Positions 24,309-34,836 of a stretch of 34,836 bases of DNA are shown here, one piece after another. Both the position numbers and the translations under genes were made by a program. Each line of letters starts with the position of its first letter. Position 1 is the stretch's first letter. The notes beneath the pieces are model-generated. The model worked only from the letters and a program-made list of their open reading frames with translations. It had not been told where the DNA came from and did no database searches. Source of the DNA: an uncultured Bacteroidota bacterium (GTDB taxonomy: Bacteria; Bacteroidota; Bacteroidia; Chitinophagales; LD1); contig CAIOTH010000162.1 of the NCBI GenBank assembly GCA_903861145.1, positions 1 through 34,836 of the forward strand, in the 5' to 3' direction.

Positions 24309-24316
24309 TATTTTTG
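24309..24316 (+). promoter_or_regulatory. -7 box TATTTTTG for the T9SS protease
   Basis: This is an exact TAnnTTTG match. It contains the TTG at 24314, which is therefore not a start codon. The true ATG is at 24365, giving a leader of about 42 nt. Confidence 0.55.
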
Positions 24317-24364
24317 TTGCCATTTCAAAAAAGTTATTTTCACTGCGTAAGAAAGAATGAACGT

Positions 24365-26692
24365 ATGAAAAATTTCGTTGCGGTATGTATTTCCTGTTTT
24401 GTTTTTTTAACGCAGGCTAATGCACAAATGGATTTATCGATTGCGCCCAAAACATCAAAACTATCTGCTAATATATTGGGTAAGGTAAGTGAAATTGTGG
24501 TGCCCCCGTTTTCGAAGGAACAAACTGAGCAGTTTGACTATAACGATACAAAAAACGGGCACATGCCGGTAATGGCTCGCAATATTGCGGTAAATATAAA
24601 TACAACCAATGCCGGTAGTTGGACTGAATTGCCCAATGGTGACAGGATTTGGAGAGTTGAAATAAGTGCCGCCGGAGCACAGGGAATTGTGCCTTTATTT
24701 GACCAGCTTTACTTACCACCCGGAGCAACTTTGCACGCTTATATGCCTGGAAAAGAAGAAGTGTTGGGTGCTTTTACCAATGATAATACCCCGGAAACCA
24801 GAAGCTTTTGCTTCGGCCTTATACACGGCGACAGGTGTGTGCTTGAATATTATGAACCCCAAGAGCAAAAAGGCAAAGGCAAAGTAAGCCTTGATAAAGT
24901 AGGTTATGCTTACCGCTGGGTATCGCCTTTGGCTAAAAGTATGAAAAGCGGCTCGGGGGCTTGCGAGGTGAATGTTGCCTGCCCGGAGGGTAATGCATGG
25001 GCAAACCAAAAAAGGTCGGTGGCGAGAATATTTGTGGTGAGTGATGCAGGAGAGGGATTTTGTAGTGGGGCTATGGTAAATAACGTGCGTAAGGATTGTA
25101 CGCCATACATGCTTTCGGCTGAGCACTGCACTGAGGGAGGAGTTTCGACTACTCAATATGGGCAATGGGTGTTTTATTTTAATTACCAGGCGGCTACCTG
25201 CGCAGATACCGTTGGGCCACAAACGGATATGGTAAACGGCTGCAAGAAAATAGCAGATAGCGAAGATGGCGGCGGCAATTCAGGTTCGGACTTTTTGTTG
25301 CTACAGTTGTATCATACCCCACCCAGCGCTTATAATATTTACTACTCGGGCTGGGATATAACGAACACAACTCCTGCTACTGGGGTGGGTATTCATCATC
25401 CAAATGCGGATATAAAAAAGATATCAAGCTACTCGAGTGCGGCTCAGTCAATATCGTGGGGCAATATTGCCCAAAATACGCATTGGCAGGTGATTTGGGC
25501 CAGCACGGTTAGTGGCCACGGAGTAACTGAGCCTGGCTCATCTGGCTCGCCTTTATACAACCCTAATTCGCTAATTGTGGGCCATTTAACGGGTGGCGCT
25601 TCATGCTGCACCTTAGGCGGTTGCGGAAGTGATGGAATTGGGCCCACGTCTCCAGATGCTTACGGAAAGGTTGCCTATGATTGGACCAGCGATGGAGTAA
25701 CTAGTGCCGTGCAACTGAAGCCGTGGTTAGATCCCGATAACACGGGGTCAACCACCCTGCAGGGTATGAATCCGCCATGCGGCAGCGCAGTGCCTAATGA
25801 CGTGGGCATGCAGGCTATACCTGAACCCAGCGGTACGGTATGCTCGGGCACGGTAACACCAGTTGTGGTGTTGCGCAATTTTGGTTCAAACACCCTTTCA
25901 TCGGCTACCATAAACTATAAATACGATAATGGAAGCACCAGCAGTTTTAGCTGGACCGGAACGCTTTTTGCGGGGAATACCGTTAACGTAACGCTACCCA
26001 CTGCTACGCTTAGCGCGGGGGCGCATACTTTTGCGGCAACTGCGTCGGCGCCGAACGGGTTAACTGATGCTAATTCATCTAACAACAGTTTAACTTCTAA
26101 TTTCTTTGTATCGGGGCCAACAGGTAGCCTGTTACTTGCGCTTACTACCGATAACAGCGGAACTAAAACCACCTGGCAAATTGCCGATGCCTCAACTAAT
26201 GTTGTGGCTTCGGGTGGGCCTTATCCAAATCTATCGGGCGGCACTACTTATGATATTCCAATTTGCCTGGCATCGGGCTGCTATACGTTTACCATATTTT
26301 CGTCAACCAATAATGGTATGACTGATGGCGAAAACGGGAATTACGTGTTAACCGATGCGGGCAATACCAGCATATTTACCAGTTTAAGTAACCCTGCATT
26401 TGGCAGCCATGAAACACGCAATTTTTGCGTGACACCTTCGGCTGTAAACGAGGTTCCTACTTTAAGTTTCAGTATTATTCCAAATCCATCAACAGGCCAG
26501 TTTAATTTGGTTATTAATAGCAATGAAGAAAAAACAGTCAGGGTTTACGATGTTACCGGGCGGATAATAAAGGAAAGAAAAACAATTGAGCAAAACTTCA
26601 TGCTGGATTTAAGTAGCGAAAGCCGGGGAGTTTATATTTTGGATATAGAAACCGCTAACGGAAAGGCGGTTCAAAAATTAGTTTTAAAGTAG
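24365..26692 (+). CDS. T9SS-exported trypsin-like serine protease (lysyl-endopeptidase-like)
   Basis: The 775-residue product has a signal peptide (MKNFVAVCISCFVFLTQANA) and a propeptide-like N-terminal part. A chymotrypsin-fold domain spans about 200-470, with H254 (LSAEHC), D309 (GSDFLLLQL) and Ser393 in PGSSGSPLY; paired Cys are typical of the lysyl endopeptidase group. A CARDB-like Ig domain lies at about 478-582, then a beta domain with GCYTFTIF. The end is a type A T9SS sorting domain (IIPNPSTGQFNL ... RVYDVTGRI ... RGVYIL), so it crosses the outer membrane and is anchored or released. Cleavage specificity is inferred from family only. The next gene starts 3 bases after the stop. Confidence 0.92.
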   Translation: MKNFVAVCISCFVFLTQANAQMDLSIAPKTSKLSANILGKVSEIVVPPFSKEQTEQFDYNDTKNGHMPVMARNIAVNINTTNAGSWTELPNGDRIWRVEISAAGAQGIVPLFDQLYLPPGATLHAYMPGKEEVLGAFTNDNTPETRSFCFGLIHGDRCVLEYYEPQEQKGKGKVSLDKVGYAYRWVSPLAKSMKSGSGACEVNVACPEGNAWANQKRSVARIFVVSDAGEGFCSGAMVNNVRKDCTPYMLSAEHCTEGGVSTTQYGQWVFYFNYQAATCADTVGPQTDMVNGCKKIADSEDGGGNSGSDFLLLQLYHTPPSAYNIYYSGWDITNTTPATGVGIHHPNADIKKISSYSSAAQSISWGNIAQNTHWQVIWASTVSGHGVTEPGSSGSPLYNPNSLIVGHLTGGASCCTLGGCGSDGIGPTSPDAYGKVAYDWTSDGVTSAVQLKPWLDPDNTGSTTLQGMNPPCGSAVPNDVGMQAIPEPSGTVCSGTVTPVVVLRNFGSNTLSSATINYKYDNGSTSSFSWTGTLFAGNTVNVTLPTATLSAGAHTFAATASAPNGLTDANSSNNSLTSNFFVSGPTGSLLLALTTDNSGTKTTWQIADASTNVVASGGPYPNLSGGTTYDIPICLASGCYTFTIFSSTNNGMTDGENGNYVLTDAGNTSIFTSLSNPAFGSHETRNFCVTPSAVNEVPTLSFSIIPNPSTGQFNLVINSNEEKTVRVYDVTGRIIKERKTIEQNFMLDLSSESRGVYILDIETANGKAVQKLVLK

Positions 26693-27448: not shown

Positions 27449-30400
27449 TTACTGGGCAACCATTTTGCCTTTGCCTATTACGGTACCGTTATGCGTTACT
27501 TCATACATATACACTCCTGAAGCCATGGTACCTCTATCAATACTGAATATGCTGCCGGTTGCTGTCTGGTTTTTAACCACCCTGCCAAGCATGTCATATA
27601 CATTCAATTCGTAAGGACCATCGACACCGCTTATTCTTATTGTTGTATATTGACTAAACGGATTAGGCTGCAATGCTATTGTAACATCATTAGGCACAAT
27701 TGGGTTAACCGATAAGGTGTAATCAATAGTGTTAAGTGTTTTGTTAGTAGACACGCCTGCGTTGTAATCAAAGAATATATCGGCCTGGTTGGTAATTGCT
27801 GTTTTAGAAGGTAATCCCTGAATTGGTAATATCATAAAGGTTACAAAACCATGGCTGGCTTCCTGGTCGGTGCTGCTATCGGGTAAGCTTACTGCATTGA
27901 ATTTCCAGATAGCTTCGTTGCCCGCAAATTGCATGGTGTATGGTAAACTTGCACCTATCATTTTGAATGTGCTGACATCGAGGTACTGTGACAGTGTATC
28001 CTGGATAACGATATTGATAGCAGGAGCTGTTCCGGTATTCTGGAAGTTGATAGTATAAGTTAACCATTGGTCGCCATGTATTAAACCTTCAGGACCAACG
28101 CCTATAGGCGATACCTGTTTGTTATTAGGATCCCAGCTAGCCGTAACGTTTTGGTGCACCGTATCAACATTATTGCTTTGGTTGGCATCCTGGCAACTAT
28201 CGGTTGTTACATTACCAAGTGTAAAGATGAACTGACCGGCTGTAAGTGTGCTATCGGCAGTAAACCTAACATAGTAATACTGGCAGCTGCCCGGGTTTAA
28301 GTGGTTAAGCGCCCATGAGGCAGTGTAAGTTGATGAGTTTTGTGAAGTAGCTGCCGGTGACGAGTAATTGTATGTTAACGACGGATCGTAGAACAAGTTA
28401 ACAGTGCCGCTGCTAACATTGGCACCAACATTACATACCTCAATTTCATAGTATGCAGGATAGCCCGGTGTAACTGTGGTGTTAGGGGTAACATTAATGC
28501 TAAGGTCGCAAGCACCAGGTTGTACGTAAACACCGAAGTTATTATTATCGTAAGAGTTACCCGCTGTTGTAGCATTAACGGTTATTGAAGTAGGTGTTAT
28601 AACTCCATTATGGTAGCTGGTAGTTACAGCGGTAATAACATATGTTCCGGTTGGAAGCACAGCACAGTAATGGCCGTATTGATCAGTATAACCGGTATAT
28701 ACAATGTGACCTGAATCAGTAAATACTACCTGTGCGTTAGGAACACCAGATTCTCCCTGATCCTGTGAATGGTTATTGTTAGCGTCAAAATAAACAGTTC
28801 CACAAATGGTTACACTATTGTTCTGGATACCGAAGTTATAGCCACAGTTTTGGCCGCTGGTAACTTGTATGTTTTGATATGCAGAGCAGTTAACGTTAGA
28901 GTTAAGCGGTGTATGCACCGGTATAGTAAAGGTATAGCCTGTAGGTGCACAATAGTAAATGGAGTAGGTACCTGCTGGCACAACTATTACATAGTGGCCG
29001 TTTGAATCGGCATGAGTAACATAACTACCTACGTGAATTTCGGCATAAGGAACACCTGTTTCGCCTGTATTCTGAACACCATTGCCATTTAGGTCGTTAA
29101 ATACCACACCACAAACAGTATCGCCAACGGCAGTGCATGAAGGAACGTTAATAACCACTGTATCAAAGTTATAACAGTTAACGCCATAGAAGTGAAGGAT
29201 AACAGTATAGTGTCCACCTTGAGCGTAAACGTGTGTTGGGTTCGATAGGGTATCGGTTGTTCCATCACCATAAATCCATCTTAAGAAACTCAGGTCACCG
29301 GTTGAGGTGCTGGTAAAGGTTACTCGTTGGCAGCTATCGATGGTATAGGTAAATGAAGCGTGACAAACAGTAGTAATGGCATGGCCAACATGAACCGAAT
29401 CGCAATAAGTATTAGTGCAACCGTTAGCGCTGGTTATAGTAAGACATACGTAATAAGCGCCGGTATGAGTATATGTGTGGTAAATATTGCTGTAAGTTGA
29501 ACTTGCACCATCACCAAAGTTCCAAACATATGACACGATAGAATCAGTACTGCTGGAGTGATTTGTAAATATAATTGTGCTAAGGTTGTTAGCATATGCC
29601 GAATCGGTAAAGTTAGCATGGCAGCTTGTGCCTACGCCAGTTCCCTGAACGCTTTGGCAAGATGTATCGGAACACAATGTACCCGGAATAGTTACAATGT
29701 GGCAAACTGTGTAAACACCTGCTTGAGTATAATAGTGCGTCGGGTCAAATGTGGTTGCTGTAGTTCCGTCGCCGAATGTCCACAGATTGGTTACTCCTGC
29801 AATAGTTGTGGTGCCTGCAAAATGAACACCACCGCTTTGGGTATAAGTATACGTATAGTTTGCACTTAAACCATTGCATGGGTTTCCGATTACAGTTATC
29901 GAATCGCAGTAGGTGCTTGAGCAACCGTGTAGAGAGTAAATGTAAAGGCAAACGTAGTATGTGCCACTATGCGCATAAATATGCGTGCCGTTTTTAAAGG
30001 TACCTGTAGCGCTATCCCCAAAAGTCCAACGGTATGATATTATTGAATCGGTTGAAGTTGAAAGGTTAGTGAAATAAATACCGTTAGTGCCATACGACTG
30101 GTGGCTAAAGTTAGCAATACAACCTGATGCATTTGCCTGCACATTAGTGCAGAATGAATCGATACAGTTAGTTACACCAGCATAGTAAACATACTGGCAA
30201 ACATGGTATAAGCCCGATGATGTATAAGCATGTGTAGGGTCGTTATTGGTAGAAACGGTACCATCACCAAAGTGCCAGTAGTGAACTACACCGGCAGCTG
30301 TATCGGCCGGAATGAACTGCACGTTACCATTAGTAAGATGGGTAGTAGTGAAGTTGGCATTTAAACCAGAGCAAGGATTGGTTGTATTAGTTATGGTTAT

Positions 30401-33400
30401 AGTTTGGCAAGTTGAATCGCAGTATGTATTGGCGTTAGCGTTTACATACAAGCAAACTGTATAAGTGCCGTTTGGCAGTGCATGGCTTAACAAGCTAGAC
30501 GAAGTTCCCTGGCCGGTAGCGGTTTGAACAATAACGCCATGTGCATTGGTTACAACCCACTCATAAATAGTGCTGGTAGTTACACCAGTTGAATTGCTAA
30601 AGGCATGTATAATACTATCCTGGTAAACATACTGGCTAAACGCGGCCACAGGACAAGGTGTAGTTGTTGTAATAGTAATGTTATTGCAAACGGTATCGCG
30701 ACATGTGTTGCCGTTAAAAACCACCAGGCAAACCGTATAAGTACCTGACTGAGCATAACCATGTGTTATGTTTTGTCCGTATCCATATGTTCCATCGCCA
30801 AATGTCCATCTGTAATAAGTACCAGTTGGGTCACTCACGGCATGAAACTCAACTGAATCTGTTGAATTGGCTTGAAGGTTAGAAGTCCACGCAGCAGATA
30901 AGCCGGCACAAGGATTAGTGCCACCACCTACTACTACAGATTGACAGATTGAATCGCAAATACGAGTAGAGTTAGTAGCACGTATATATTGGCAAACAAC
31001 GTAAGTACCGCTATCAAGTACTGATGACGTGAAATCGCCACCGGTGAAGGTTTGAACCAGGTTACCATGAGGACCCCAAATCTTCCAGCTAATCTGAGAC
31101 AGAGAATCAATATTAGTTGAGGTTGTATAAGCGTGTATAGCACCACCACCAAGACCGGCGTAAACAGTATCGGCGAAAGCAGGCGTTCCACAAGTGCCTA
31201 CGGTAGGCACAAAGACATAATTGCAGACAGAATCGCAGAAGGTAGTTCCGCTATAAAGAGTTAAACATACGATATAGTAACCCGGTGACAGGTGTTGGCT
31301 GGCTATGTAATTATTAGTACCAGTTTGGGTTTGAATAATATTGCCGTTGGTTCCTTTTATAGTCCATTTGTAAATGGTACCGGTATTAGTACCGGTTGAG
31401 TTGCTATAAGCATGAATGCTGGTATCGCCATAAATATAATCCTGGAAAGAAGCGGTACCACAAACCACACTTGTTGGTATGGTAATAGTTTCGCAAGATG
31501 AATCGGCACAATTCAATCCAACTATGTAATCATAGAAACAAACACGCACGGTGCCATAGTTTGGATATACATGTACAACGCGGGTTCCAGAACCGGATGT
31601 TCCATCTCCGAAACTCCAGTAGTGGTTGGCATGCGTATTGGTGTCAAGTGATTCAAAAACTACAGTATCATGCGATATAGCGTATGTCCATTGTGCAGTA
31701 ATGCCAGGGCAACCGTTTAAAGTTGCAACGGTGCAAGCCGAATCGCAGAATTGCTGATTGCTGTTGTATAAATACATACACACTGAATAACTACCATTAG
31801 GCAAGCCACCGGTGGCGAAAAAATAATAATTGCGTCCATCGTGTGTTGCAACGATTGCGCCCGATGAATTGCGGATAATCCAGTTATAAATACTGTTAGT
31901 ATCGGTACCGGTTGAGGTGCTATAAGCATGGATTGAAGTATCGCCAACAACATAAGCACCTACCGAGGCTACACCGCAACCTGCCGGGCTTGTAATAGTT
32001 ATATGACCGCATGAAGTATCGCGGCAACCAAGTGCGGTATTAATAGCTACCATGCAAATAGTATAGCTACCGGTGCTGGTGTAAACGTGTGTTGGATTTG
32101 AAGATGTGGCGTTTACTCCATCACCAAAACTCCAGTAATATGATGTACCTGATGGGTTGCTAGCGGCAATAAACTGAAGTGTTGAGCCTGGATTTGCAAG
32201 GCCGCTGTAAGTCCATGCAGCACTTACACCTGAACAGCCAGAGCCACCTACCGTGATGCTACGACATGCTGTATCGTGGCAGGTAAGTGCAGGGTTGCTT
32301 AAAATCAAGCAAACCGTATAAGTGCCGGCTGTTGCGTAAACGTGCGTTGCACCAGGCAAAGTAGACGAGCTTCCGTCGCCAAAAGTCCAGGCATAGGTTG
32401 TACCTACCGGGTTGTTTGTTGGCGCTGTTACCTTTAAACTATCGGAAGTATTTGATGCTATATCTGTCCATTGTGGGTTATAGCTTGAACAACGATAAAC
32501 ATTGACCTCAGAACAAAACGAATCGCAAAAAACATGTTGAGCGTTATACAGATCCAGACATACCCTATAGGTGCCTATTGGCATACCACCAGTTAGTAAT
32601 GTACTTGTATGACCGGTATTATATGATTGAATAAAGCCACCGTTGGCATTATACACATTCCAAACGTAGCTGGTTGAATCAGTAGTACCGGTAGAGGTAC
32701 TATAACCGCGAATGGTAGAATCGTTAAGAATGTATAGAGCAAAAGAAGCCGTGCCGCAGGCGTTAGGATTGCCAACTGTAACAGTTTGGCAAAACGTATC
32801 GCGGCAGACGATAGCAGTGTTACTTACAATTAAACAAGCAGTATAAGTTCCGGCTTGCGCATAAACGTGGGTTGGATTAGATACTGTTGAAGTACTTCCA
32901 TCACCAAAAGTCCATGCATATACAGTTCCACTTGGGTCAGTAGCCGGGTAAAACAATATAGTATCGGAGTTAGTTGTGTGAGGAACGTATTGCCAAGCAG
33001 CACTTAAGCTTGTACAGTTGAGCACGGTTACGCTGTTGCAAACCGAGTCGCAAAGTTGTTGGTTACCATTGTAAAGGTACAGGCATACGCGGTAAGTACC
33101 CGCAGGTAAACCATGTGAGGTATAGTCATTTGTGTGGCCCGTTGCCCCATATTGAAGCAGCGTGCCTGTTGGCCCGTAAACGTACCATAAATAATTAGTA
33201 GAAGTATCAACCCCGGTTGAGTTACTGTAAGTGCGAATAGCAGAATCGCCGATAATGTAACTTAAGAAGGATGCGGTGCCACAAGTACCGGAAGGCACTA
33301 CCACACTTTCGCATAATGAATCGGTACAAATAGAACCCGGGATATAAGCGTAGAAACAAACATGGTAAGTGCCCGGTGCGCTATATATGTGAGTTACCGT

Positions 33401-33841
33401 AGTGCCCGAACCGGTTGTGTTATCGCCAAAACTCCAGGCATGGTGTGCTATACTATTGGTATCGGCAGCAGAAAACCTTACGGTGTCATGCGTTCCTATC
33501 TGGTCGGTCCATTGTGCGGTGAGTGTGCCGCATGAAGTTAATGTAACCGATTTGCAAACGCTATCGCATAAAGTAGTGTTTTCGTAAACATACATACATA
33601 TGCTGTGCGTGCCAGCAAACACATTTTGATAGGTATAAGAGGTATTAGGGTTTGCCGCCTGCACCTGGGTACCATCCAAACGCCACGCAAAAGTCCATCC
33701 CGTTCCGCTTGTTACTATTGCGTTTACCGCGATGGTATTGCCATGTATAGTATCGGTAAATTGAGTGGGACATTGCGCATTTGCAAAGTACGAACAACAC
33801 AAGGCCAATATTAAAATGGTAAAGTGTTTAATTGCTTTCAT
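27449..33841 (-). CDS. Giant T9SS-exported modular surface protein (2130 aa)
   Basis: A signal peptide (residues 1-23, ending NAQ) is followed by 18 modules of 80-94 residues (24-1572), each opening with Cys. Some are PKD domains with W-x-F/Y-GDG. Two SdrD-B/collagen-binding-like beta domains follow (about 1573-1676, VVFNDLNGNGVQNTGETGVP; 1677-1777, VYFDANNNHSQDQGESGVP). Then come a CARDB/DUF11-like domain (1778-1901) and a conserved pre-sorting domain (1902-2048, SWDPNNK ... INFQNTG ... DIFFDYNAG) often annotated DUF7619. A type A T9SS sorting domain ends the protein (2049-2130, ALQPNPFSQYTTI ... VYDMLGRVV ... SGVYMYEV). It is probably a long extracellular adhesin or matrix fibre; ligand unknown. 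No catalytic domain is seen. A terminator follows the stop. Confidence 0.93.
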   Translation of the reverse strand: MKAIKHFTILILALCCSYFANAQCPTQFTDTIHGNTIAVNAIVTSGTGWTFAWRLDGTQVQAANPNTSYTYQNVFAGTHSICMYVYENTTLCDSVCKSVTLTSCGTLTAQWTDQIGTHDTVRFSAADTNSIAHHAWSFGDNTTGSGTTVTHIYSAPGTYHVCFYAYIPGSICTDSLCESVVVPSGTCGTASFLSYIIGDSAIRTYSNSTGVDTSTNYLWYVYGPTGTLLQYGATGHTNDYTSHGLPAGTYRVCLYLYNGNQQLCDSVCNSVTVLNCTSLSAAWQYVPHTTNSDTILFYPATDPSGTVYAWTFGDGSTSTVSNPTHVYAQAGTYTACLIVSNTAIVCRDTFCQTVTVGNPNACGTASFALYILNDSTIRGYSTSTGTTDSTSYVWNVYNANGGFIQSYNTGHTSTLLTGGMPIGTYRVCLDLYNAQHVFCDSFCSEVNVYRCSSYNPQWTDIASNTSDSLKVTAPTNNPVGTTYAWTFGDGSSSTLPGATHVYATAGTYTVCLILSNPALTCHDTACRSITVGGSGCSGVSAAWTYSGLANPGSTLQFIAASNPSGTSYYWSFGDGVNATSSNPTHVYTSTGSYTICMVAINTALGCRDTSCGHITITSPAGCGVASVGAYVVGDTSIHAYSTSTGTDTNSIYNWIIRNSSGAIVATHDGRNYYFFATGGLPNGSYSVCMYLYNSNQQFCDSACTVATLNGCPGITAQWTYAISHDTVVFESLDTNTHANHYWSFGDGTSGSGTRVVHVYPNYGTVRVCFYDYIVGLNCADSSCETITIPTSVVCGTASFQDYIYGDTSIHAYSNSTGTNTGTIYKWTIKGTNGNIIQTQTGTNNYIASQHLSPGYYIVCLTLYSGTTFCDSVCNYVFVPTVGTCGTPAFADTVYAGLGGGAIHAYTTSTNIDSLSQISWKIWGPHGNLVQTFTGGDFTSSVLDSGTYVVCQYIRATNSTRICDSICQSVVVGGGTNPCAGLSAAWTSNLQANSTDSVEFHAVSDPTGTYYRWTFGDGTYGYGQNITHGYAQSGTYTVCLVVFNGNTCRDTVCNNITITTTTPCPVAAFSQYVYQDSIIHAFSNSTGVTTSTIYEWVVTNAHGVIVQTATGQGTSSSLLSHALPNGTYTVCLYVNANANTYCDSTCQTITITNTTNPCSGLNANFTTTHLTNGNVQFIPADTAAGVVHYWHFGDGTVSTNNDPTHAYTSSGLYHVCQYVYYAGVTNCIDSFCTNVQANASGCIANFSHQSYGTNGIYFTNLSTSTDSIISYRWTFGDSATGTFKNGTHIYAHSGTYYVCLYIYSLHGCSSTYCDSITVIGNPCNGLSANYTYTYTQSGGVHFAGTTTIAGVTNLWTFGDGTTATTFDPTHYYTQAGVYTVCHIVTIPGTLCSDTSCQSVQGTGVGTSCHANFTDSAYANNLSTIIFTNHSSSTDSIVSYVWNFGDGASSTYSNIYHTYTHTGAYYVCLTITSANGCTNTYCDSVHVGHAITTVCHASFTYTIDSCQRVTFTSTSTGDLSFLRWIYGDGTTDTLSNPTHVYAQGGHYTVILHFYGVNCYNFDTVVINVPSCTAVGDTVCGVVFNDLNGNGVQNTGETGVPYAEIHVGSYVTHADSNGHYVIVVPAGTYSIYYCAPTGYTFTIPVHTPLNSNVNCSAYQNIQVTSGQNCGYNFGIQNNSVTICGTVYFDANNNHSQDQGESGVPNAQVVFTDSGHIVYTGYTDQYGHYCAVLPTGTYVITAVTTSYHNGVITPTSITVNATTAGNSYDNNNFGVYVQPGACDLSINVTPNTTVTPGYPAYYEIEVCNVGANVSSGTVNLFYDPSLTYNYSSPAATSQNSSTYTASWALNHLNPGSCQYYYVRFTADSTLTAGQFIFTLGNVTTDSCQDANQSNNVDTVHQNVTASWDPNNKQVSPIGVGPEGLIHGDQWLTYTINFQNTGTAPAINIVIQDTLSQYLDVSTFKMIGASLPYTMQFAGNEAIWKFNAVSLPDSSTDQEASHGFVTFMILPIQGLPSKTAITNQADIFFDYNAGVSTNKTLNTIDYTLSVNPIVPNDVTIALQPNPFSQYTTIRISGVDGPYELNVYDMLGRVVKNQTATGSIFSIDRGTMASGVYMYEVTHNGTVIGKGKMVAQ
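29126..33772 (-). repeat. Eighteen tandem Cys-rich Ig-like modules of two kinds
   Basis: Type A modules carry W-x-F-GDG/GDS/GDN and a C-x4-C pair (CRDTFC, CTDSLC). Type B modules lack GDG, contain a STSTG-type turn and GxY-x-VCLYLYN, and end with C-x3-C (CDSVC). By residue start the order is B24, A104, B187, A276, B362, A451, A536, B622, A711, B794, B884, A978, B1063, A1157, A1241, A1322, A1407 and a divergent A at 1493. Most have four Cys: the first residue, one in V/I-C-L/M/F, and the terminal pair. The C-terminal five are all A-like, and the last loses the middle Cys. Confidence 0.85.
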
Positions 33842-33948: not shown

Positions 33949-34836
33949 TTACTTGTCCAAAACATCGGCCGTTACCCCCACTTTGGGTGCCAGCCATGCC
34001 CTATAACGCAATATTTCGCCATCTTCAACTGATTCAGCCACAGTTGTCTTAACAAACTTAGCCACCTCATTAAAAGTCTTTGTTCCGGGCTGTAGCTCCT
34101 GAATACCTGCTAATTGGGGTAAAAGTTTCAAAATGAAACGCTCTCGCTTAAAGTCATCCGAATCCAGTTGCTCTTTGAACTGTTTTTTTACCTGTTCAAC
34201 CCTTTTTAACATACTCTCCTCGTCCCCCGATTCGTGCTGCATAATGCATTCGGCGGCCGCAATTTTGACTTTGAAGGAGGCATCGGTCTTTTTGTAATGG
34301 TCGTTAAGATAGAGCTTAACCAGGTTTTTGATGGCATCGTTTGTTTTGCGCTGAAAGAATAAAAGGCTGGCTTTGTTTAGCAGAATGAAGAAATCGTAAT
34401 AACTGTTTTTAATATCCTTCATTTCGCGTTCGGCCTCATCCAAGGCTTTTAAACCGCGGGTAAGGTCGGTTTGCGTATAGTTTATTACAAGTGCGTTGTA
34501 ATAGTAAAATACGTACTTTTTGTATAGCAGGTCGTTAAATGCACTCAGCTCCTCTCCCAGTGCTTCGGCATAATCAAGGCTTTCGCGGTACTTGCGGTTT
34601 TTAAAAGTGGCGTTGATAATATAGATAAGCATTTGAATTTTAGTCTCATGATTGGTTTTATCGAACCACTTTTCGTTTAGAAACTTTTGGTAAGTACTGA
34701 GCATAAACTTTTCGAGCTCGATAAAGTTGTGGTTTTGTATCAATAGCTGGCTCACCGCCCTGAATATGCGGGTTTGAAAGGTTTTGCTTTGCCTGATGGA
34801 ATCGTCGGAAGCAAATTCTTTAATAGTTGCATCGAG
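33949..34836 (-). CDS. Helical protein, 5' end beyond the right window edge
   Basis: The frame stays open past the GTG at 34755 to the last base of the window (27 further codons, all gene-like: EFASDDSIRQSKTFQTRIFR), so the gene is partial and the true start lies outside. The visible 295 residues are almost wholly alpha-helical, with TPR-like helix pairs (KYRESLDYAEALGEE, TRGLKALDEAEREM) and no signal peptide in view. No catalytic motif or family is recognised; a TPR-like scaffold is the best description. It stops 107 bp upstream of the giant surface-protein gene, on the same strand. Confidence 0.8.
   Translation of the reverse strand, partial: LDATIKEFASDDSIRQSKTFQTRIFRAVSQLLIQNHNFIELEKFMLSTYQKFLNEKWFDKTNHETKIQMLIYIINATFKNRKYRESLDYAEALGEELSAFNDLLYKKYVFYYYNALVINYTQTDLTRGLKALDEAEREMKDIKNSYYDFFILLNKASLLFFQRKTNDAIKNLVKLYLNDHYKKTDASFKVKIAAAECIMQHESGDEESMLKRVEQVKKQFKEQLDSDDFKRERFILKLLPQLAGIQELQPGTKTFNEVAKFVKTTVAESVEDGEILRYRAWLAPKVGVTADVLDK

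Follow-up and report, generated by a model that had tools for sequence, protein, structure and literature searches.

Results

Two classes of Cys-rich module in a giant secreted protein

The window analysed here, 34,836 nucleotides of contig CAIOTH010000162.1 (positions 1 to 34,836, forward strand; assembly GCA_903861145.1) from an uncultured Bacteroidota bacterium of the lineage Bacteroidia; Chitinophagales; LD1, encodes a giant protein in which 18 Cys-rich modules follow one another in tandem. We consider it probable that this protein is a cargo of the type IX secretion system (T9SS) with a type A sorting domain, that all 18 modules are PKD-superfamily beta-sandwiches closed by disulfides, and that one of the two module classes, class B, is a derived branch of that superfamily. 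The gene is a single open frame without an internal stop, as read from the open reading frame (ORF) translation. The predicted mature protein retains 82 Cys, enough for up to 41 bonds. The module array covers residues 24–1569 (window positions 33772 down to 29135) and, when cut at each first Cys, yields modules of 77–94 residues. The initial annotation had placed four Cys in each module, and we count exactly four in all 18; the order it gave, B-A-B-A-B-A-A-B-A-B-B-A-B-A-A-A-A-A, likewise matches our reading of the frame. The protein, its signal peptide and its modules are listed below, with classes assigned from the sequence and clustering taken from the module tree.

27449–33841, reverse strand: giant secreted protein, 2130 residues, 84 Cys, two of them in the putative signal peptide
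33773–33841, reverse strand: putative Sec signal peptide, residues 1–23, extent judged by eye from the sequence
33533–33772, reverse strand: M01, class B (C-x3-C), clusters with the B type found at the N-terminus of the orthologues
33284–33532, reverse strand: M02, class A (FGDN, C-x4-C)
33017–33283, reverse strand: M03, class B, modelled with AlphaFold2 from 37 B modules (see below)
32759–33016, reverse strand: M04, class A (FGDG, C-x4-C)
32492–32758, reverse strand: M05, class B
32237–32491, reverse strand: M06, class A
31979–32236, reverse strand: M07, class A
31712–31978, reverse strand: M08, class B
31463–31711, reverse strand: M09, class A, clusters with M02
31193–31462, reverse strand: M10, class B
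30911–31192, reverse strand: M11, class B
30656–30910, reverse strand: M12, class A
30374–30655, reverse strand: M13, class B
30122–30373, reverse strand: M14, class A, clusters with M16
29879–30121, reverse strand: M15, class A (FGDS), clusters with M17
29624–29878, reverse strand: M16, class A
29366–29623, reverse strand: M17, class A
29135–29365, reverse strand: M18, class A (YGDG), no C-xn-C pair, a different arrangement of its four Cys

All seven B modules (M01, M03, M05, M08, M10, M11 and M13) contain a C-x3-C pair, and none has Gly-Asp (GD) in the central turn; the YGD of M10 lies near its N-terminus and is unrelated to that turn. F/Y-GD, sought as W-x-F/Y-GD, is present in all 11 class A modules, ten of which, within M02–M17, combine GD with C-x4-C. 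The initial annotation had claimed that every module obeys a rule linking GDG to Cys spacing. That rule is true for 17 of the 18 modules but fails for M18, which has YGDG and no C-xn-C pair, and the class A motif is GD followed by G, N or S rather than a strict GDG. The Cys residues of M18 are C1493, C1504, C1556 and C1569, an arrangement kept in the nearest orthologue, L054. A perfect split of ten and seven modules would arise by chance once in 19,448 if the modules were independent, a figure that overstates the evidence because the modules are duplicates of each other.

The module trees address the same question by descent. In a tree of the 18 window modules, classes A and B lie on opposite sides of one branch (support 93/91), and the split persists at lower support (72/68) when the GD region and everything from the third Cys onward are removed. 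When 20 modules of L054 and 25 C-x3-C modules from the same genus are added, B forms one side of a branch supported at 100/99. The two classes are therefore real, as the initial annotation had proposed. In a larger tree of 138 modules from the genus, the 40 C-x3-C modules form one clade (Shimodaira–Hasegawa-like approximate likelihood ratio, SH-aLRT, 98) that includes none of the sampled C-x4-C modules; the sample took in 22 modules gathered by sequence pattern, which we take to be SprB-like, and 11 other C-x4-C modules missed by the GD pattern. A search with the B profile alone returned 41 domains above 60 bits in 14 proteins, all 41 with C-x3-C, and the next-best domain scored 30.6 bits.

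Loss of GD and the C-x3-C spacing do not form a coupled trait. Although GD is absent from the central turn of all 33 further C-x3-C modules (by a stricter pattern), the 13 same-genus proteins at the same locus also contain C-x4-C modules without GD, 33 by pattern and 32 in truth, since the pattern missed L056_398, which carries FGDG. In addition, a paralogue in the window's own genome (L003, contig C134) has 11 GDG-bearing PKD modules with C-x2-C, a third spacing class. The GD-less C-x4-C modules and the GDG-bearing C-x2-C modules together rule out the coupling.

Class B is a divergent relative of PKD domains

None of the seven B modules of the window reached the Pfam cut-off, the best PKD score being 15.7 bits (M01) against a required 23.5, so class B does not hit the PKD profile in the normal way. 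Among 37 B modules, no Pfam family matched more than three at E ≤ 0.01 and PKD matched one; in PHROGs, at most three matched, to a Hoc-like head decoration family (best E 0.004). Class B is so far uncatalogued. Class A modules, in contrast, are members of the PKD families (Pfam PF00801 and PKD_4, PF18911): the three of 11 that were tested singly (M04, M15 and M18) all exceeded the PKD or PKD_4 cut-off, and PKD_4 scored 338.8 bits over 11 stretches of the whole protein.

Profile comparison places the two classes together. HHalign aligned the B and A profiles with a probability of 98.1% (E 1e-13; 97–98% across comparisons), and two other beta domains from the same proteins, used as controls, gave 9.4% and 0.4%. 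This result rules out an Ig-like family unrelated to PKD. The initial annotation had suggested that class B may be an undescribed Ig-like family; the absence from catalogues stands, but class B is homologous to the A/PKD modules. Judged from its profile, class B is therefore a branch of the PKD superfamily that has diverged, lacks GDG and goes unrecognised by Pfam in the window. It differs from PKD proper in its missing GD, its different central hairpin, its four Cys with C-x3-C and its scores below the PKD cut-offs.

A sequence search of the PDB with the B profile gave as its best match the PKD region of KIAA0319L, a weak match (whole-chain E 6e-4, best single-stretch i-Evalue 1.6), and the seven-module B profile also found KIAA0319L first (E 0.005). 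These KIAA0319L-like PKD domains (PF22352; PDB 6nz0 and 6jcq) are the nearest solved sequences to class B, and the aligned stretch lacks GDG as well. The likeness is limited, however, in that only one of the 37 B modules matches PF22352 (E 6e-5) and Cys is absent from the aligned part of KIAA0319L.

The AlphaFold2 model of M03, built from 37 sequences, is a seven-stranded sandwich (predicted local distance difference test, pLDDT, 93.4). Its structural neighbours are led by fibronectin type III (FnIII) domains; PKD1 (4l9d) follows at rank 11, below FnIII monobodies, with template modelling (TM) scores of 0.73/0.79. A second structure search returned no PKD chain among the 50 matches listed. With FnIII best and PKD1 close behind, the fold by itself does not distinguish between the two domain types.

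The cysteines covary as two pairs

The four Cys of the modules (C1 to C4) were scored in 290 distinct modules from loci of the genus and family, with C1 allowed at two positions (C1 or C1′) and C-x2-C, C-x3-C and C-x4-C all accepted; 12 duplicates and 10 modules near ORF ends were left out. C2 and C4 were both present in 238 modules, both absent in 51 and mismatched in one (p = 2e-56). C1 and C3 were both present in 276, both absent in 10 and mismatched in four (p = 4e-15). The other four pairings showed no association in this set (p = 0.46–1). Forty modules had C1 or C1′ together with C3 only, and nine had C2 and C4 only. A first offset set had comprised 312 modules; with C-x3-C and C-x4-C alone accepted, C2 and C4 then mismatched in 22 of 302, a rule that misread the C-x2-C paralogue, which was also partly counted twice.

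The C2–C4 pair reappears clearly when shared ancestry is taken into account, and both pairs do so when the sample is widened. On a tree computed with the Cys masked, 17 changes of C2 and C4 (out of 17 and 18) shared both branch and direction (p = 9e-32), and C1 and C3 changes coincided in two of four cases (p = 0.0002). A second set, 1180 modules drawn from 80 loci whose titles mostly point to Bacteroidota, was run afterwards under the rule set for the 290 modules, with slightly different ranges (tail taken to +19 rather than +22, second C1 range one residue wider, nine end modules and three duplicates dropped). C2 and C4 agreed in 1170 of these (1127 with neither, 43 with both, 10 mismatched; p = 2e-68) and C1 and C3 in 975 (p = 4e-34); the other pairs showed no significant link here (p = 0.09–0.70). 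In 841 of the 1180 modules the C1–C3 type pair stands alone, and C2–C4 therefore looks like an addition.

The spacing and the model agree with this arrangement. C2 and C4 lie 15 apart in 24 of the 40 C-x3-C modules and in 110 of the 178 with C-x4-C; the distance is 14 in every one of the 11 C-x2-C modules. In the M03 model, strand F spans residues 62–71 and strand G residues 77–87, strand limits that should put C2 (67) opposite C4 (82) to within one residue, whereas C3 (78) is not opposite C2. The best reading is that disulfides form between C1 and C3 and between C2 and C4, and that class B would differ by a one-residue shift of C3. A literature search on Cys-rich or disulfide-bonded PKD modules, T9SS cargo and disulfide formation in Bacteroidota found no description of these modules in the portions of the papers available.

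Class B is tied to one locus in one genus

Of the 18 genomes in the window's genus, 14 had matches to the seven-module B profile (E ≤ 1e-4). When 396 genomes of the order were searched with the 37-module profile, every match below E 1e-20 came from the same 14 genomes, and weaker matches (down to E 2.7e-12) occurred in other genera; among 395 genomes across the phylum, the window's own genome was the sole match at E ≤ 1e-6. At most 13 first-look candidates per genome were scored in the order and phylum searches. All 40 scored C-x3-C modules belong either to the window protein or to one of 13 proteins from the same genus, the latter a biased sample because they were fetched for containing B. 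C-x3-C was found in none of the 38 paired modules from the 80 wider loci (28 C-x4-C, 10 C-x2-C). The wider genome scan kept the best 80 of 466 relatives, all distant (23–37% identity). By these profiles, class B was confined to a single genus within the set of genomes sampled.

The gene order at the locus is shared, as seen from the directly upstream gene:

33949–34836, reverse strand: gene truncated at the window edge, without a Pfam match, 52–80% identity, adjoins the orthologous gene at all 13 same-genus loci examined

This adjacency in 13 of 13 loci shows that the locus is the same across 14 same-genus genomes. The upstream gene is a possible partner of the giant protein, or the gene order may simply be stable. 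Convergent to the giant gene lies a gene (24314–26692, forward strand) for a T9SS-sorted protein of 792 residues with a sub-threshold trypsin-like match, relatives of which were found at L054 and L064, two of the 13 loci fetched from the genus.

The array itself varies in length. Twelve orthologues are uninterrupted frames of 1037–2345 residues and the thirteenth (L063) is interrupted by a stop; 11 of the 13 contain one or two B modules each. L054 has 20 modules, of which N12–N20 pair one to one with M10–M18, and its N03–N10 are four B-A pairs lying opposite M03–M06 and the more divergent M07–M08 (an A followed by a B) of the window. M14–M17 form an A′-A″ repeat by tree (M14 with M16, M15 with M17). 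Since M10–M18 match N12–N20 and M14–M17 have their own repeat, the final run of A modules need not stem from losses of B, and the module tree with L054 does not support such losses. The initial annotation had envisaged duplication of an A-B dimer followed by losses; from the module sequences, copying of B-A pairs is supported in one stretch, around M03–M06, where L054 has extra copies, and the losses are not shown.

The C-terminal domains and the isopeptide families

Past the array, the protein continues through four further domains to its sorting signal:

28892–29110, reverse strand: SdrD_B-like domain 1, residues 1578–1650 (Pfam match; region 1570–1675 has four Cys and no Lys)
28532–28804, reverse strand: second SdrD_B or transthyretin-like domain, about residues 1680–1770, limits approximate (Pfam; region 1676–1774 has two Cys and no Lys)
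28157–28507, reverse strand: DUF11 domain, residues 1779–1895 (Pfam; region 1775–1900 has four Cys and no Lys)
27731–28132, reverse strand: DUF7619 domain, residues 1904–2037 (Pfam match)
28118–28120, 27998–28000 and 27788–27790, reverse strand: candidate isopeptide residues K1908, D1948 and N2018 of DUF7619, by spacing and motif
27458–27667, reverse strand: T9SS type A sorting domain (Por_Secre_tail, TIGR04183), residues 2059–2128 (profile match)

TIGR04183 scored 43 bits against a cut-off of 23. DUF11 (CLIPPER), SdrD_B and DUF7619 are reported as intramolecular isopeptide domains in PMC12617251, which rates many SdrD_B predictions as low-confidence; the same three families come after the module array here. 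In DUF7619, the Lys, Asp and Asn lie at offsets 0, +40 and +110, compared with 0, +38 and +107 in the table of that paper. Among 14 other proteins with DUF7619, Lys is present in all 14, the Asn place is Asn in five and Asp in nine, and the pattern for the middle acidic residue was found in 10 (once as Glu) and missed in four. DUF7619 of the window protein thus keeps residues that could form a Lys–Asn isopeptide bond.

The window's SdrD_B and DUF11 regions differ from the reported isopeptide domains in that residues 1570–1900 contain no Lys and 10 Cys; without Lys, these regions cannot form a Lys isopeptide bond. When DUF11 stretches of the window protein and six orthologues were compared, six of the seven had retained all four Cys in corresponding positions. 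The exception is L064, in which the second and third Cys are absent together and the first and last kept, a pattern that hints at 1–4 and 2–3 pairing. Two of the six orthologous stretches, in L054 and L057, have Lys at the sixth DUF11 residue, where the window has Asn. Because Lys and Cys coexist in these stretches, any replacement of Lys by Cys would be at most partial.

Secretion and thiol oxidation in the host genome

The host genome has a match to SprA_N, that is, an SprA-like translocon protein. In the same genome (98.65% complete), DsbA, DsbB, VKOR and Thioredoxin_4 had no match at E ≤ 0.001, other thiol oxidases not having been searched. Each of these four models finds its family in some control genomes, and VKOR occurs in seven of 149 genomes of the order. 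Given these missing matches, oxidation might be spontaneous, or might be carried out by another enzyme, or the disulfide reading might be wrong. Despite the lack of matches to the four models, the genome encodes several Cys-rich PKD proteins of T9SS-like architecture.

SprB-type T9SS adhesins are long T9SS cargo found at the cell surface. The window protein resembles them as long T9SS cargo with a presumed surface site, and differs from them in having a type A sorting domain. In Flavobacterium johnsoniae, disulfides are important to the gliding machinery and to the T9SS (PMC12635249, on SprB, SprF and GldK). The disulfides of that paper connect the track with carrier proteins, and its text makes no mention of PKD.

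Discussion

The model that we favour is one in which 18 PKD-superfamily beta-sandwiches, each closed by disulfides, build a long T9SS type A cargo. In the 17 standard modules, the C2–C4 bond would span the final beta-hairpin, formed by strands F and G, and C1–C3 would fasten the N-terminus to the point where strand G begins; M18 has a different arrangement. Class A is the ordinary, GD-bearing PKD type. In the derived class B, a different hairpin takes the place of the GD turn and is longer in six of the window's seven B modules, and C3 lies one residue nearer to C4 with the C2–C4 distance unchanged. The array grows and shrinks at one fixed locus, partly by copying of B-A pairs. The stalk would then go on with Lys-free, Cys-bearing SdrD_B and DUF11 domains and with DUF7619 and its Lys–Asn isopeptide residues, and disulfides together with an isopeptide bond may confer mechanical or proteolytic resistance. 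The protein is most likely a surface-anchored or released stalk; its function would be that of a length-variable, covalently stabilised T9SS stalk, probably adhesive. Computation establishes the two classes, their homology, the clades, the Cys covariation and the synteny, whereas the bonds, the resistance they may confer and the stalk or adhesin role are inferred from these.

Other uses of the Cys can be envisioned. Four Cys with a short C-xn-C spacing resemble zinc ligands, and the modules might bind a metal ion and form no disulfides. A site with four ligands is expected to come and go as a unit, however, whereas the modules with partial sets reveal two independent pairs (40 against nine in the 290), and C3 slides among x2, x3 and x4 while the C2–C4 distance is nearly fixed; we regard metal binding as highly improbable. 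Another scenario is a covalent ladder, with C4 of one module bonded to C1 of the next, from which it is separated in the window protein by just 7–12 residues. C1 and C4 do not covary inside a module in either the 290 or the 1180 set, and N04 of L054 lacks C2 and C4, yet the following N05 keeps its C1. A ladder thus seems unlikely to us, if less so than a metal site.

A different question is whether the class distinction has any functional meaning. Class B may be an old PKD duplicate that drifted, with C-x3-C as a marker of descent, and this view is compatible with disulfides. It is in keeping with the single B clade, with the frequency of GD loss without C-x3-C (32–33 modules), with the joint occurrence of C-x2-C and GDG, and with the one or two B modules that are all that 11 of the 13 orthologues carry. 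Against it stand the presence of B in 14 of the 18 genomes of the genus, the retention of C-x3-C in 41 of 41 strong B domains and the renewed copying of B-A pairs in the L054 lineage. We consider drift a serious contender, somewhat short of probable.

Several observations weigh against our favoured model of disulfide-closed PKD modules. The pairing rule was adjusted once after the exceptions had been looked at, and C1 and C3 disagree in 205 of the 1180 modules of the wide set. On the tree, C1–C2, C1–C4 and C3–C4 changes also coincide twice (p about 0.005), so that the C1–C3 signal is weak there, and a test for independent pairs limited to well-supported branches leaves two C2–C4 pairs and one C1–C3 pair, too few for significance. 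The B modules were gathered by Cys pattern, which makes their invariant Cys partly a product of that selection, and for class B the pairing is transferred, on grounds of homology, from other modules. The structural matches of M03 favour FnIII over PKD, the host genome lacks matches to the four oxidation models, and the DUF11 stretches of the nearest orthologue, L054, and of L057 keep Lys beside their four Cys. Finally, the initial annotation had pictured a disulfide-stapled extracellular fibre; Cys covariation argues for the disulfides, but a model of tandem modules reached a predicted TM score (pTM) of 0.50, which does not support a rigid, straight rod.

A broader hypothesis, which we hold to be doubtful, is that disulfide-stapled T9SS stalks are made without DsbA, DsbB or VKOR by an unrecognised oxidation route, that disulfides take the role of isopeptide clamps in some stalks, including that of the window, and that class B evolved within this system.

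What is new here is a branch of the PKD family, itself already known, together with the disulfide map predicted for it. If the favoured model is correct, a PKD branch has been missed by Pfam, and the lineage would combine disulfides and isopeptide clamps in one stalk. The oxidising enzyme would become a concrete question, as the four standard thiol-oxidation models match nothing in the host genome, and natural Cys covariation would provide, without a structure, a disulfide map of surface modules that are widespread in Bacteroidota.

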